Assembly (NCBI RefSeq): GCF_017306545.1
Contig: NZ_JAFKID010000013.1
Coordinates: 91,351-155,350 of the forward strand
Direction of reading: 5' to 3'
Length of the DNA stretch: 64,000 bases
Source: Mesorhizobium sp.
Lineage (GTDB): Bacteria; Pseudomonadota; Alphaproteobacteria; Rhizobiales; Rhizobiaceae
Part shown: piece by piece, positions 12,622 to 56,022 of the stretch
Position numbering within the stretch: position 1 is the first letter of the stretch
Layout: every line of letters starts with the position of its first letter
Translations under genes and position numbers: made by a program
The notes under the pieces: model-generated
What the model was told of the DNA's origin: nothing
Database searches by the model: none
What the model saw: only the letters and a program-made list of their open reading frames with translations

Positions 12622-12745
12622 CCTTCTCCCCGTTTACGGGGAGAAGGTGGCGGCAGCCGGATGAGGGGCAGTACAAGCTTTCGCGAGTGGGCGCTGCCCC
12701 TCACCCGACCCTTCGGGCCACCCTCTCCCCGTAAACGGGGCGAGG
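12622..12745. repeat. Family A palindromic element, copy 2
   Basis: Left end CCTTCTCCCCGTTTACGGGG and right end CCTCTCCCCGTAAACGGGGC are inverted copies, each itself palindromic. Inside, GGATGAGGGGCAG is mirrored by CTGCCCCTCACCC. The element fills almost exactly the gap between two convergent genes: three bases from the transglycosylase stop and eight from the oxidoreductase stop. It probably serves, by position, as a bidirectional 3' hairpin. Confidence 0.9.
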
Positions 12746-13871: not shown

Positions 13872-14013
13872 TACCCCCACCCCTAATCCCTCCCCGCAAG
13901 GGGGGAGGGAGACGCCGAGGCCACCGTTTCAGCCAAAATTGGCAAGATTGGCGCGCTGTAGCGGTGCCGCAAAGTCCCCTTCCCCCTTGCGGGGAGGGGT
14001 TAGGGGTGGGGGT
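13872..14013. repeat. Family B palindromic element, copy 1
   Basis: Left arm ACCCCCACCCCTAATCCCTC followed by a CCTCCCCGCAAGGGGGGAGG palindrome; right arm is the inverted version (CCCCCTTGCGGGGAGGGG, then TTAGGGGTGGGGGT). A 60-base spacer lies between. Outside it, TATGGAGTTTTC at about 13842 and GAAAATTCCATA at about 14035 are also inverted partners, so the unit may extend to about 13836-14060. Together with these flanks it fills the 332 bases between the oxidoreductase start and the AI-2E-type gene stop. Confidence 0.88.
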
Positions 14014-19283: not shown

Positions 19284-19422
19284 ACCCCCACCTCTAACCC
19301 CTCCCCGCAAGGGGGAGGGGGATTTGCGGCGGCGCTGCAGGCTGCCGACATTGGCAATGCCGAACGCAACGATTGCGTCGGCGTCTCCCTCCCCCTTGCG
19401 GGGAGGGGACAGGGGTGGGGGT
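19284..19422. repeat. Family B palindromic element, copy 2
   Basis: Left ACCCCCACCTCTAACCCC then CTCCCCGCAAGGGGGAGGGG; right CCTCCCCCTTGCGGGGAGGG then GACAGGGGTGGGGGT, an inverted copy. The 60-base spacer differs from that of copies 1 and 3 apart from short stretches. It lies between the convergent GFA and rmuC genes, 39 and 41 bases from their stops. Confidence 0.9.
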
Positions 19423-23979: not shown

Positions 23980-24120
23980 ACACCCACCCCTAGCCCCTCC
24001 CCACACGGGGGAGGGGAACTTCGCGGCGCTGCTACGACCTGTCGATGTTGGCTTATTTGGGATGAACCGGTGGCGTCGGCGTCTCCCTCCCCCGTGTGGG
24101 GAGGGGACAGGGGTGGGGGT
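23980..24120. repeat. Family B palindromic element, copy 3 (variant loop)
   Basis: Left CACCCACCCCTAGCCCCTCC with the palindrome CCTCCCCACACGGGGGAGG; right CCTCCCCCGTGTGGGGAGGG then GACAGGGGTGGGGGT. Compared with copies 1 and 2 (GCAA/TTGC), the loop changed to ACAC on the left and to GTGT on the right, so complementarity of the two ends is kept. Beyond the right end, GAAAACCCCATCCGCGATAG resembles the outer flank of copy 1. Confidence 0.9.
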
Positions 24121-48502: not shown

Positions 48503-48535
48503 GTCCGATCCGATCAAAATTTGGCTCGTTTCAAA

Positions 48536-48559
48536 ATTGACGTTTACGCAAACGTCAAT
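48536..48559. promoter_or_regulatory. Candidate MerR-regulator operator, site 2
   Basis: A perfect 24-bp inverted repeat: ATTGACGTTT, spacer ACGC, AAACGTCAAT. It contains TTTACGCAAACGTCAA, which matches the spacing of site 1 (TTACG, four bases, CGT). It ends 78 bases before the first acyl-CoA dehydrogenase gene, an ideal place for control of the operon. Confidence 0.65.
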
Positions 48560-48637
48560 ATTTGCTATGCGCCTGTCAAGATCGATCCGCCCCGCGCTTC
48601 GGGCCGCGCGGGGCGGCCATTGAGGGTGGAGGAAATC

Positions 48638-50434
48638 ATGCCGATTTATCAGGCGCCGGTGCGCGATACGCTGTTCGTGCTGAACGAAGTGCTCGGCATC
48701 GAGCGTCATTCTAACCTGCCGGGCTTCGCCGACGCCACGCCGGACATGATCGAGGCGATCCTCACCGAAGGCGCTCGTCTGGCCGAGGAAGTCATCCAGC
48801 CGACCAACCGCGCCGGCGATCTCGAAGGCTGCACACGCCATGACGACGGCACGGTCGCCACGCCAAAGGGGTTCAAAGAGGCCTATCGGCAGTATTGCGA
48901 AGGCGGCTGGATGGGGCTGGCGGTGCCGGAAGAGCATGGCGGGCAGGGCCTGCCCTACGTGCTGCACAACGCCGTCGGCGAATATGTGGCGGCCGCCAAC
49001 ATGGCGCTGCTGATGTATCCGGGCCTGACTCAAGGCGCCATCGCGGCCATCATCGCCCATGGCAATGACGAGCAGAAGAAGCGCTTCCTGCCGAAGATGG
49101 TCGAGGGTGTTTGGACCGGCACCATGAACCTGACGGAGCCGCATTGCGGCACCGACCTCGGCCTCTTGCGCACCAAGGCCGTGCCGAACGGCGACGGCAC
49201 GTATAAAATTTCCGGTCAGAAGATATTCATCTCGGCCGGCGAGCACGACATGGCCGACAACATCGTCCATCTGGTGCTGGCCCGCATCGAGGGCGCGCCG
49301 GAAGGCACCAAGGGCATCTCGCTGTTCATCGTGCCGAAGTTCAAGCTCGACAAGGAAGGTAAGCCGGGCGCCCGCAACGCCGTCTCCTGTGGCTCCGTCG
49401 AGGAGAAGATGGGCATCCACGGCAACGCCACCTGCGTCATGAATTACGACGAGGCGGAAGGCACGCTGCTGGGCGCCGAGAACGGCGGCCTCAAGGCCAT
49501 GTTCGTGATGATGAACGAGGCGCGCCTCGGCGTCGGCCTGCAAGGCCTATCGCAGTCGGTGGTCGCCAGCCAGAACGCCGTTGCCTATGCCAAAGAGCGT
49601 TTGCAGGGCCGCTCCCTGACCGGCCCGAAGGCGCCCGACAAAAAGGCCGATCCGATCATCGTCCATCCCGATATCCGCCGCATCCTGATGACGATGAAGG
49701 CCTGGAACGAGGCCGGCCGCGCCTTCATGCTGTGGACGGCGCTGAAGTCGGACATCGCCCACCGCTCGCCCGACGCGAAGGACGCCGAGGCGGCCGACGA
49801 CATGCTCGGCCTGATGACGCCGGTGCTGAAGGGCGTCCTGACCGACAAGGGCTTCGAGCATGCCGCCATGGCCCAGCAGGTGTTCGGCGGCCACGGCTAT
49901 ATAGAAGAGCACGGCATGAGCCAGTTCGTGCGCGATGCCCGCATCGCCATGATCTATGAAGGCGCCAACGGCATCCAGGCGCTCGACCTTGTCGGCCGCA
50001 AGCTGGCGATGAACGGCGGCCGCGCCATCCAGGCCTTCTTCAAGGAAGTCGGCGACTTCTGCGAGCAGAACCGCGCCGACGAGAAGATGGCGCCCTTCAC
50101 CAAGGCGCTGAAGAAGGGCCTCAACGACCTGCAGGCCGCGACCATGTGGCTGATGCAGAACGGCATGAAGAACCCCGACAATGCCGGTGCCGCTTCCACC
50201 GACTACATGCATCTCACCGGCCTGGTGGTACTGGGCTACATGTGGGGCCTGATGGCGAAGACCGCGCAGGCCGCACTTGCCCACGGCGCCGGCGATGCCG
50301 CCGCCTTCTACGACAACAAGCTGGTGACGGCGCGTTACTTCATGGAGCGCGAGATGCCGCAGACCGGCGCGCACCTCGCCCGCCTTTCGTCCGGAGCCGA
50401 CGCCATGATGGCGCTGCCGGCGGAGGCGTTTTAA
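48638..50434 (+). CDS. Acyl-CoA dehydrogenase, long form (DmdC-like)
   Basis: A 598-residue FAD enzyme introducing the alpha-beta double bond in acyl-CoA. It has the standard core ([59 protein letters not shown]) plus the extra C-terminal domain ([20 protein letters not shown] onward) found in the 590-600-residue group that includes 3-methylmercaptopropionyl-CoA dehydrogenases and long-chain enzymes. ATG 48638 with GGTGGAGG upstream starts [15 protein letters not shown]. It is the first enzyme gene of the operon; the DUF559 cassette begins 18 bases after its stop. Confidence 0.94.
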
Positions 50435-50452
50435 GGTGAGCCGTGCCGCCGT

Positions 50453-50968
50453 CCCCCTCTCCCTTGAGGGGAGGGTGGCCCGAACGGCCGGGAGGGGTCC
50501 GAGCGGCCGTGCGCCGTCGTTTCACTTCGACCCGCGCTCAGGGAGGATCGTAGGAATGCCTCGTACCCATATCAGCTTCGAAATGAGGCAGAAGGCTCGT
50601 GCGCTTCGTCTGCGTTCGACGAAGGCTGAATCCCTGCTTTGGTACGAACTGCGCTTGTTCAGATCTGAAGGTTTGATCTTTCGTCGTCAACAGCCGATCG
50701 GCCCCTATATCGTGGACTTCGTTTGCTCATCAGCCCGGTTAGTCGTCGAGGTCGATGGTGATTTTCATGAAACCGATGCCGGAAAGCGTCACGACGCCAA
50801 TCGGGATTCCTACCTGCACTCTCTTGGCTACTCCATCCTCCGGATCGATGAGCCGGATGTGATGAACAATGCGTGGCACGTCGGCCAGTTGGTGAAGGAC
50901 GAGGTCGAGGCTGTCGCCACCGACCCCTCCCGACCGCTGCGCGGCCACCCTCCCCTCAAGGGGGAGGG
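50453..50968. mobile_element. Palindrome-bounded cassette carrying a DUF559 nuclease gene
   Basis: Left end: CTCTCCCTTGAGGGGAGGGT, GGCCCGAACGGCC, GGGAGGGGTC (50453-50504). Right end, read on the minus strand: CCCTCCCCCTTGAGGGGAGG, GTGGCCGCGCAGCGGTC, GGGAGGGGTC (50968-50921). The two are inverted copies about 48 bases long with few differences, and each contains its own palindromes. They enclose about 416 bases holding the DUF559 gene. The cassette fills the gap between two operon genes. I treat it as a candidate mobile unit; target-site duplication was not recognised. Confidence 0.65.
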
Positions 50969-50990
50969 AAACGACGGAGCAACTCTATGA
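50556..50990 (+). CDS. DUF559 family endonuclease-like protein (Vsr / PD-(D/E)XK fold)
   Basis: A 144-residue DUF559 protein. Family landmarks are TKAESLLWYELR (residues 22-33), FRRQQPIGPYIVDFVCSSAR with D54, LVVEVDGDFH with E65, D67 and H71, and LGYSILRIDEPDV. D54 and ExD at 65-67 correspond to the metal-binding PD-(D/E)XK core of Vsr-like nucleases. Residues from about 123 to the end (DPSRPLRGHPPLKGEGNDGA) are encoded by the right palindromic end of the cassette. ATG 50556 has GGGAGG ten bases upstream. Its stop overlaps the next dehydrogenase start (ATGA). It is an outsider in a fatty acid operon. Confidence 0.88.
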   Translation: MPRTHISFEMRQKARALRLRSTKAESLLWYELRLFRSEGLIFRRQQPIGPYIVDFVCSSARLVVEVDGDFHETDAGKRHDANRDSYLHSLGYSILRIDEPDVMNNAWHVGQLVKDEVEAVATDPSRPLRGHPPLKGEGNDGATL

Positions 50991-52156
50991 CCAATCCCGC
51001 AGAAGTGCTCGCCCTGCCGAAACCTGCATGGATAACCGAAGACGTCGCCATGCTTTACGATATGGCGCACCGTTTCCTGTCGGACGAGATCGCGCCGCAT
51101 TACGACGCCTACGAGAAGAACGAGATTGTCGACCGTTCGGCGTGGGGGAAGGCGGGCGCGGCGGGCCTCCTATGCGCCTCCATGCCGGAGGAATACGGCG
51201 GTGCCGGCGGCAGCTTTGCCCATGAGAGCGCCATCATAGAGGCGATCGGCCATGTCGGCGTCGACGGCTTCGGCATCGGCCTGCACAACGCCATTGTCGC
51301 GCCCTACATCCTCCACTACGGCTCGGAAGAGCAGAAGAAGAAGTGGCTGCCGAAAATGGCGAGCGGCGAACTGATCGGTGCCATCGCCATGACCGAGCCC
51401 GGCGCGGGATCGGACCTGCAAGGCGTCAAGACGCGCGCCGAAAAGGGGGGCAACCAGTACCGCATCAGCGGCTCCAAGACCTTCATCACCAACGGCCAGA
51501 ACGCCAACCTGATCGTCGTCGTCACCAAGACCGATCCTGCCAGGGGCGCCAAGGGCACCTCGCTGATCGTCGTCGAGACAGACGAGGTCGAGGGTTTCGA
51601 GCGCGGCCGCAACCTCGACAAGATCGGCTTGAAGGCCAACGACACGTCCGAACTGTTCTTCAATGACGTTCGCGTGCCGACCGCGAACCTGCTCGGCGCC
51701 GAGGAAGGACAGGGCTTCGTCCAGCTCATGCAGCAATTGCCGCAGGAGCGACTGATGATCGGCACCGGCGCCATCGCCATGGCCGAGCGGGCGCTGGCCG
51801 CCACCATCGACTATGTCAAGGAGCGGCAGGCCTTCGGCCAAAAAATCATCGATTTCCAGAACACCCAGTTCAAGCTGGCCGAACTGAAGACCGAGATCAC
51901 CATCGGTCGCACCTTCTACAACGATTGCGTGGCGCGCCACCTCGCCGGCGGCCTCGATCCCGTCACGGCCTCGATGGCGAAATACTGGCTGTCGGATTTG
52001 CAGGGCAGGGTGGTCGACGAATGCCTGCAACTGTTCGGCGGCTATGGCTATATGAATGAATATCCGATCGCCCGCATGTACCGCGACGCCCGCGTGCAGC
52101 GCATCTACGGCGGCACCAACGAGATCATGAAGTTGCTGATCGCGCGCTCGCTCTGA
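50987..52156 (+). CDS. Acyl-CoA dehydrogenase, medium form
   Basis: A 389-residue acyl-CoA dehydrogenase with the normal three-domain fold: [60 protein letters not shown] and the C-terminal [17 protein letters not shown] with the catalytic glutamate region (YGGTNEIM). ATG 50987 overlaps the DUF559 stop; ACGGAG lies eight bases upstream, directly after the cassette right end. It precedes the thiolase gene by 28 bases. Confidence 0.95.
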
Positions 52157-55878: not shown

Positions 55879-56022
55879 CCCTCCCCCTTGAGGGGAGGGT
55901 GCCGCCCGAAGGGCGGTGGGAGGGGGCCTTGCGGCAGTACGCCGACCCCTTTTGCGTCGGAGCAGTTGAGGTGACCCCTCCCGGCTCGCTCCGCTCGCCA
56001 CCCTCCCCTCAAGGGGGAGGGG
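55879..56022. repeat. Family C palindromic element without a gene
   Basis: Left end CCCTCCCCCTTGAGGGGAGG, GTGCCGCCCGAAGGGCGG, TGGGAGGGGG; right end on the minus strand CCCCTCCCCCTTGAGGGGAG, GGTGGCGAGCGGAGCGAGCC, GGGAGGGGTC. The architecture is that of the DUF559 cassette, with about 40 bases in place of the gene. It begins 10 bases after the fadB stop, and its right end is followed by AAACGGAGCA, the ribosome binding site of the thioesterase gene. Confidence 0.9.

Follow-up and report, generated by a model that had tools for sequence, protein, structure and literature searches.

Known repeat systems and their relation to the locus

Triplex repeats of the BoxC/PIT/TM type have been known from Escherichia coli since the 1990s and are a common feature of many bacterial genomes. 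BoxC, the PIT element and TM_ECO are one and the same E. coli repeat, with the three-block triplex design also described below, and triplex formation has been reported for TM_ECO; the main study of these triplex motifs (TMs) reports an absence of mobility functions in their vicinity (PMC4666352). The CGTC-tagged repetitive extragenic palindromes (REPs) are common in alphaproteobacteria and are said to lack a dedicated transposase (PMC3733652). Finally, a DUF559 gene has been assigned to the EDxHD homing family (PMC9403480). Here we describe a DUF559 nuclease gene enclosed by two inverted TMs and located between two acyl-CoA dehydrogenase genes, within a 64,000-nucleotide stretch of a Mesorhizobium sp. 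genome (contig NZ_JAFKID010000013.1, positions 91,351 to 155,350), hereafter the window. The best explanation of the data, to which we assign a probability of about 0.6, is that this unit is a member of a widespread two-part system in which a single-domain DUF559 endonuclease is coupled to its own TM family, in an arrangement similar to that of REPs and their associated tyrosine transposases (RAYTs) but made of unrelated parts.

The likeness to REP-RAYT systems, including REP doublets (REPINs), is extensive: a small nuclease gene lies between inverted repeats, each gene has its own repeat family, the gene is low-copy and the repeats are high-copy, and gene-less doublets occur. The differences concern the components, since the enzyme is a Vsr/EDxHD PD-(D/E)XK nuclease instead of an HUH Y1 transposase, and the ends of the unit and the 15 TMs of the window are triplex motifs that lack the GTAG tag at the foot of the hairpin. 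Thus, of the REPIN-like family proposed in an earlier, sequence-only reading of this DNA, the REP-RAYT-like layout stands, but the repeats are BoxC/PIT-type TMs and not GTAG REPs. CGTC-REPs, likewise palindromic, were also considered, as several units of relatives begin near CGTC. They were ruled out because they have 8-9 bp stems, A/T first pairs and mostly CCA tails, whereas the window TMs are C/T-rich triplex motifs; on stem and tail criteria the two are different families.

The DUF559 gene and its enclosing motifs

The window protein matches PF04480 with 103.4 bits, the curated cut-off being 20.6 (E 7.6e-30 for the 144 residues from the ATG at 50556, and 1.5e-29 for a 184-aa open reading frame (ORF) beginning with GTG). 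The ATG is the likelier start, because the longer GTG ORF runs through the left repeat. The protein has a Vsr/EDxHD-type fold of the PD-(D/E)XK group, is related in sequence and fold to the catalytic domain of the EDxHD homing endonuclease I-Bth0305I, and in its AlphaFold model forms a single domain without a separate DNA-binding domain. The active site is conserved, with E25, D54, E65, D67, H71 and D80 invariant across 32 aligned sequences, and the gene is under purifying selection (ratio of nonsynonymous to synonymous substitution rates, dN/dS, of 0.03-0.12 where computable, dS being saturated in many pairs).

The sequence-only reading had claimed that the gene is enclosed by inverted ends and that the right end supplies its last codons. 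Both points were confirmed: two pairs of inverted arms and a TM on each side frame the gene (Table 1), and residues ~123-144 (~22 C-terminal codons) are encoded within the right repeat or at its border. Most of residues 11-120 are confident in the AlphaFold model, and residues 131-144 have a predicted local distance difference test (pLDDT) score below 50, so this C-terminal tail lies outside the fold. The stop codon is overlapped by the ATG of the next acyl-CoA dehydrogenase.

The ends had been described simply as palindromes. Inverted palindromes are present, but the full description is that of a three-block TM consisting of a mirror pyrimidine arm, a spacer and a hairpin. Read outward from the gene, each end begins with a pyrimidine arm (CCCCTCCC), followed by a spacer able to form a small hairpin, and then by the hairpin, whose 5' arm (CCCTCCCC) mirrors the first pyrimidine arm in window-family ends. 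By this predicted geometry, the ends are intrastrand-triplex motifs of the BoxC/PIT/TM_ECO class, with which they share the mirror arm, loop and hairpin and the occurrence as inverted pairs. The window family differs from BoxC in sequence and in its longer spacer, itself able to pair, and the DUF559 gene as a regular neighbor of such motifs sets the present loci apart from the published account of BoxC cited above. When single-strand DNA folding was compared with shuffled sequences, the right end was stronger (z -2.5) but the left was not (z -0.5); for the left end, then, the stability of a simple hairpin cannot serve as an argument.

The enrichment of these repeats in the window and in the genome is not due to chance. 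The triplex finder returned 15 TMs in the window, 12 of them arranged as inverted pairs, against 0 in five Markov-1 shuffles, and the core 16-mer with up to three mismatches had 11 matches in the window against a shuffle mean of 0.78. Genome-wide, the window-family core with at most one mismatch gave 131 matches (a few near-palindromic sites being counted on both strands) compared with 0 for the reversed pattern. A family search detected three DUF559 genes in this genome, all of them with TMs on both sides and each with another sequence family: besides the window family, with its 131 core matches, there are 42 matches to a BoxC-like core, carried by the family of locus L002, and 12 matches for the L001 family, 3 of which flank the gene. 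Window-family copies were also seen within ~140 bp of the starts of six contigs of this genome (C10, C15, C17, C24, C45 and C47), which suggests that these repeats interrupt the draft assembly.

Movement of these repeats by a RAYT or another insertion sequence (IS) transposase, with DUF559 as a passenger, would follow the known precedent of REP-RAYT (PMC2817692). However, a search confined to the Y1/RAYT-type transposase family PF01797 gave no match in the Mesorhizobium genome, although it was positive in five of the 14 genomes used as controls, and the window TMs lack the GTAG tag. A RAYT was accordingly rejected as the mover, and this explanation is the least probable of the alternatives considered here.

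DUF559 genes are regularly accompanied by TMs

DUF559 genes and TMs are linked. With a TM scored as present when it lay within 250 bp of the DUF559 domain on either side, one was found in 82 of the 85 scored loci of the class-level set (90 loci were fetched, most but not all of the listed places, and five with short flanks were dropped), in 23/24 further phylum-level loci, and at E. coli ycjD (1/1). Within the genus, TMs accompanied 22/23 members of the window clade (window gene counted) and 24 of the 29 scored among the best 30 matches. In the named loci, a non-random sample made up of the best 80 of 571 confirmed places, 64 of 74 scorable loci had a TM, including loci from Haemophilus parainfluenzae, Chlorobaculum, Caulobacter, Pseudomonas, Nitrospirales and Spirochaetes bins, and some Clostridia. 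In the controls, TMs were present in 11/460 single segments at least 650 bp distant in the same loci, in 16/709 distal segments of the named set, and, across the window and 20 other stretches no longer than 20 kb, at 45/358 other ORFs and 16/174 intergenic gaps. The values were 33/309 for ORFs more than 1.3 kb away and 11/112 for ORFs of 80-200 aa. Only 6 DUF559 genes were recognized as separate ORFs in the other-ORF control, all with a TM (6/6); hence some control ORFs may border unrecognized DUF559 genes, a bias that works against our interpretation.

TMs were located upstream in 64/85 class loci, downstream in 68/85 and on both sides in 50/85. The flanking of the gene by its repeats known from REP-RAYT is therefore found here too, though part of the loci have TMs on one side only. 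This is also why inverted pairing of the flanks missed many loci when used alone, with only 27/86 class loci above the 99th percentile of cross-locus pairs. A DUF559 clade of the genus that seemed free of repeats has an upstream TM doublet in L072, L073, L082, L084, L086, L089 and L090, and none in L083 and L092.

Some loci stood out in other ways. In L065 and L066, the two flanks of the DUF559 gene match each other in inverted orientation over exceptional lengths (about 100 and 147 bp), yet both loci fail the triplex finder. L300, whose record bears the name of a Rickettsia typhi genome bin (a label that looks doubtful), has a DUF559 gene with GC-rich TMs.

Polarity and gene-specific repeat families

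The polarity of the motifs is fixed. In the class loci, the nearest upstream TM was on the minus strand in 57/68 cases and the nearest downstream TM on the plus strand in 63/71, so that on either side the mirror arm is turned toward the gene and the hairpin away from it. The downstream TM starts ahead of the stop codon in 49 of the 71 class loci that have one.

Repeat families are specific to their gene. Similarity between upstream and downstream TMs averaged 0.58 within loci (68 pairs) versus 0.33 between loci (130 pairs), and within-locus similarity was the higher in 19/19 genomes with several DUF559 loci (23 genomes were tried, four of them without the needed pairs). Across 176 loci, protein similarity was correlated with TM similarity (Mantel r 0.285, compared with at most 0.13 in 999 permutations), with most of the signal due to the 108 closest protein pairs. 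These results, together with the 3/3 DUF559 genes of the Mesorhizobium genome and the 82/85 class loci with TMs, bear out two ideas of the sequence-only reading, namely that DUF559 genes mostly lie with such ends and that their clades track repeat families.

A polymorphic insertion site

The site between the two dehydrogenase genes is polymorphic within the genus. Among 82 readable loci (90 fetched), 37 have short gaps of 31-86 bp with 0 TMs; 26 have gaps of 97-153 bp, 15 of them with one TM; 12 have gaps of 202-241 bp, of which 7 contain two TMs and 3 a single TM; and 7 have full units of 553-566 bp, each with a TM at either end, the gene being truncated in one of them. Among the intermediate gaps without a scored TM, L058 and L062 read as degenerate left ends and L037 does not. 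These gap classes indicate that TMs and gene are for the most part present or missing together, and that gene-less derivatives keep the ends. Terminal inverted repeats and empty sites are thus present, as for a DNA transposon or a miniature inverted-repeat transposable element (MITE). The empty sites envisaged by the sequence-only reading do exist, and the opposite case that it had considered, a gene fixed at this position without repeats elsewhere, does not hold, since many genomes lack DUF559 at this site and the repeats have numerous copies elsewhere.

The first 616 bp of the downstream dehydrogenase have a match in 99/99 genus genomes (weak in G068 and G096). Members of the window clade, with 64-77% identity to the window protein, were found in 23/99, counting the window's own genome and one with a truncated copy. 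They occupy no more than two sites (in 7 and 16 genomes, respectively) and have the same TM family. With respect to target-site duplication, the junctions at the window insertion site (site A) are strongly diverged. A tree of the 82 loci based on 700 bp of the flanking gene required 22 changes of state (element or remnant versus empty), compared with 27 when the labels were shuffled, a weak result from one short gene with no gain/loss history drawn.

The kinship with I-Bth0305I recalls a free-standing homing endonuclease, which would cut empty intergenic sites and be copied in by break repair, the TMs being relics of target sites or insertions. However, TMs are absent from all 37 empty sites, homing would not lead one to expect the numerous gene-less doublets of the same TM family, and no separate DNA-binding domain is present in the 144-aa protein. 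The locus differs from those of EDxHD homing endonucleases in that the gene stands free between two host genes, with no intron or intein, no long DNA-binding region, and dispersed repeats. Homing is therefore highly unlikely.

Co-occurrence in genomes, and the case of E. coli YcjD and BoxC

DUF559 and TMs co-occur at the genome level. In the class set of 289 genomes, in which both DUF559 (best E <1e-10) and the BoxC-like core were sought, at least 10 net BoxC-like copies were present in 19/71 genomes with DUF559 versus 1/218 without, and at least five in 27/71 versus 6/218, with a genome-size-stratified odds ratio of 12.5 (z 6.0). The reversed-pattern control was high in some genomes, because the BoxC-like motif is near mirror-symmetric, and net counts were used. 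The phylum set comprises 398 genomes, part of them shared with the class set. In both sets the genomes are phylogenetically non-independent and were scored for one TM family. At least 10 net copies were present in 45 genomes of the phylum set: 37/145 with DUF559 (one a weak match) and 8/253 without.

In E. coli, ycjD (b1289), located between fabI and sapF, belongs to DUF559. A BoxC element follows the gene on the 3' side, and its end is overlapped by another, degenerate copy in inverted orientation; the repeat adjacent to ycjD and the L002 family have a common CCCTCACCC-CCCTCTCCC core. The gene is present in 3365/5426 E. coli genomes and marks phylogroups A, B1 and C as well as two further sequence types, the eef operon occupying the site elsewhere (PMC12817139). 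In a sample of 60 evenly spaced records, one short record being dropped, the number of BoxC places was 13-31 (median 22) in 37 chromosomes with ycjD (ycjD place counted) and 1-21 (median 7.5) in 22 without it, a contrast confounded with phylogroup. At hrpB-mrcB, the K-12 stretch with a BoxC doublet is full in 37/60 rows, shortened in 2 and ~100 bp shorter in 20, again with one short record dropped. The ~100-bp doublet has opposite orientations in K-12 (L401) and F9792 (L405), with alignment scores of 78 inverted and 39.5 direct, and it has collapsed to one motif in 98E11.

The Caulobacter protein VsrA (CCNA_02930), the only DUF559 protein to have been studied genetically, has been proposed as a mismatch-repair enzyme, and DUF559 proteins might all be Vsr-like repair enzymes with TMs as passive neighbors. 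Nevertheless, passive neighbors would not be gene-specific, no TM was found in a 15-kb stretch around the true E. coli vsr while ycjD has one, and the window protein scores only 15.3 bits against Pfam Vsr, under the cut-off of 27. We find this explanation even less credible than homing.

The main rival is maintenance without mobilization. As a structure-specific nuclease, DUF559 would remove replication-stalling hairpins or triplexes, the genome would tolerate TMs spread by other means, and the adjoining TMs would regulate the gene. This would account for the genome-level co-occurrence and for the inversion or collapse of doublets, and TM-linked instability is on record in the TM study (PMC4666352). 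It does not predict gene-specific TM families in every genome compared, a fixed inverted polarity on both sides, or the enclosure of the gene in a unit whose occurrence is largely all-or-none. We consider it unlikely, although far from negligible.

A putative mechanism and its significance

In the proposed two-part system, the DUF559 protein may recognize the hairpin or triplex of its own family in single-stranded or extruded DNA, and cut at or near the repeat. Break repair would then copy, invert, collapse or insert the repeat doublet, with or without the gene. The gene-bearing copy would be the source, and gene-less doublets would be its non-autonomous, MITE- or REPIN-like dependants. If DUF559 does move repeats in this way, it would be a convergent counterpart of REP-RAYT from unrelated parts. 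The broader proposal, that DUF559 and TMs form a second, HUH-independent repeat-mobilizing system that extends over several phyla and includes YcjD and BoxC of E. coli K-12, with a folded or triplex end as the substrate of a Vsr-like nuclease, has in our opinion an even chance of being correct.

Several observations weigh against the two-part system. No TM was scored in 10 of the 74 named loci (L277, L288, L292, L298, L303, L307, L310, L328, L331 and L336), five of which are titled Clostridia or Lachnospiraceae and one Legionella shakespearei. TM-rich genomes without DUF559 exist (1/20 in the class set, 8/45 in the phylum set), and the presence of the gene-bearing unit at two sites among 23 genus genomes implies low gene mobility. 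At hrpB-mrcB, where two shorter aligned strains are empty, no target-site duplication is visible. The role proposed for VsrA, the confounding with phylogroup in E. coli and the concentration of the Mantel signal in close protein pairs also belong here. Seven of the loci in which the finder used here detects no TM (L288, L292, L307, L310, L328, L331 and L336; mostly Clostridia/Lachnospiraceae, plus Legionella shakespearei) may have another kind of repeat or none.

A regular nuclease neighbor, one repeat family per gene and a matching genome occurrence make DUF559 a candidate enzyme for the orphan BoxC/PIT/TM repeats, that is, the candidate missing partner that spreads or maintains them. The origin of these repeats becomes testable in E. 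coli K-12, and a function is offered for what is still a "domain of unknown function". No report tying DUF559 to these repeats appeared in a literature search on DUF559, ycjD and BoxC/PIT/triplex elements, which covered open-licence papers, mostly as titles and abstract starts, and is not proof of absence.

Other features of the window

The coordinates of the unit, its host genes and the gene-less doublets are given in Table 1. An Rfam scan of the window at gathering thresholds returned only tRNA and signal recognition particle (SRP) RNA, and a defence role of the unit was rejected because PADLOC gave weak partial matches only.

Table 1. Positions of the DUF559 unit, neighboring genes and gene-less TM doublets in the window
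Feature	Position	Strand	Remarks
DUF559 nuclease gene	50556-50990	+	144 aa; TGA 50988-50990; PF04480, conserved residues, dN/dS
Left TM	50455-50497	-	Mirror arm toward gene, hairpin outward; triplex finder
Right TM	50923-50967	+	Encodes part of the last residues of the DUF559 protein; triplex finder, AlphaFold model
Inverted arm pair	50446-50480 / 50943-50977		35 nt, 89% complementary
Second inverted arm pair	50485-50499 / 50922-50936		15 nt, 93% complementary
Upstream acyl-CoA dehydrogenase ORF (host gene)	48521-50434	+	Longest ORF, true start maybe internal; named by sequence
Downstream acyl-CoA dehydrogenase (host gene)	50987-52156	+	ATG 50987-50989
Gene-less doublet, window family, left motif	55880-55926	-	Core search, triplex finder
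Gene-less doublet, window family, right motif	55974-56020	+	Core search, triplex finder
Gene-less doublet, other triplex family	13875-14011	+/-	Triplex finder
Gene-less doublet, other triplex family	23983-24118	+/-	Triplex finder
Gene-less doublet, further triplex family	12625-12743	-/+	Triplex finder
Gene-less doublet, further triplex family	179-298	-/+	Triplex finder

The last four doublets of Table 1, and another at 19299-19420, belong to further families and have no DUF559 gene adjoining; their partners may be the L001 and L002 genes or genes since lost. Elsewhere in the genus, tandem pairs of DUF559 genes lie ~1.1 kb apart (G032:C24, G026:C2, G058:C15 and G041:C174).
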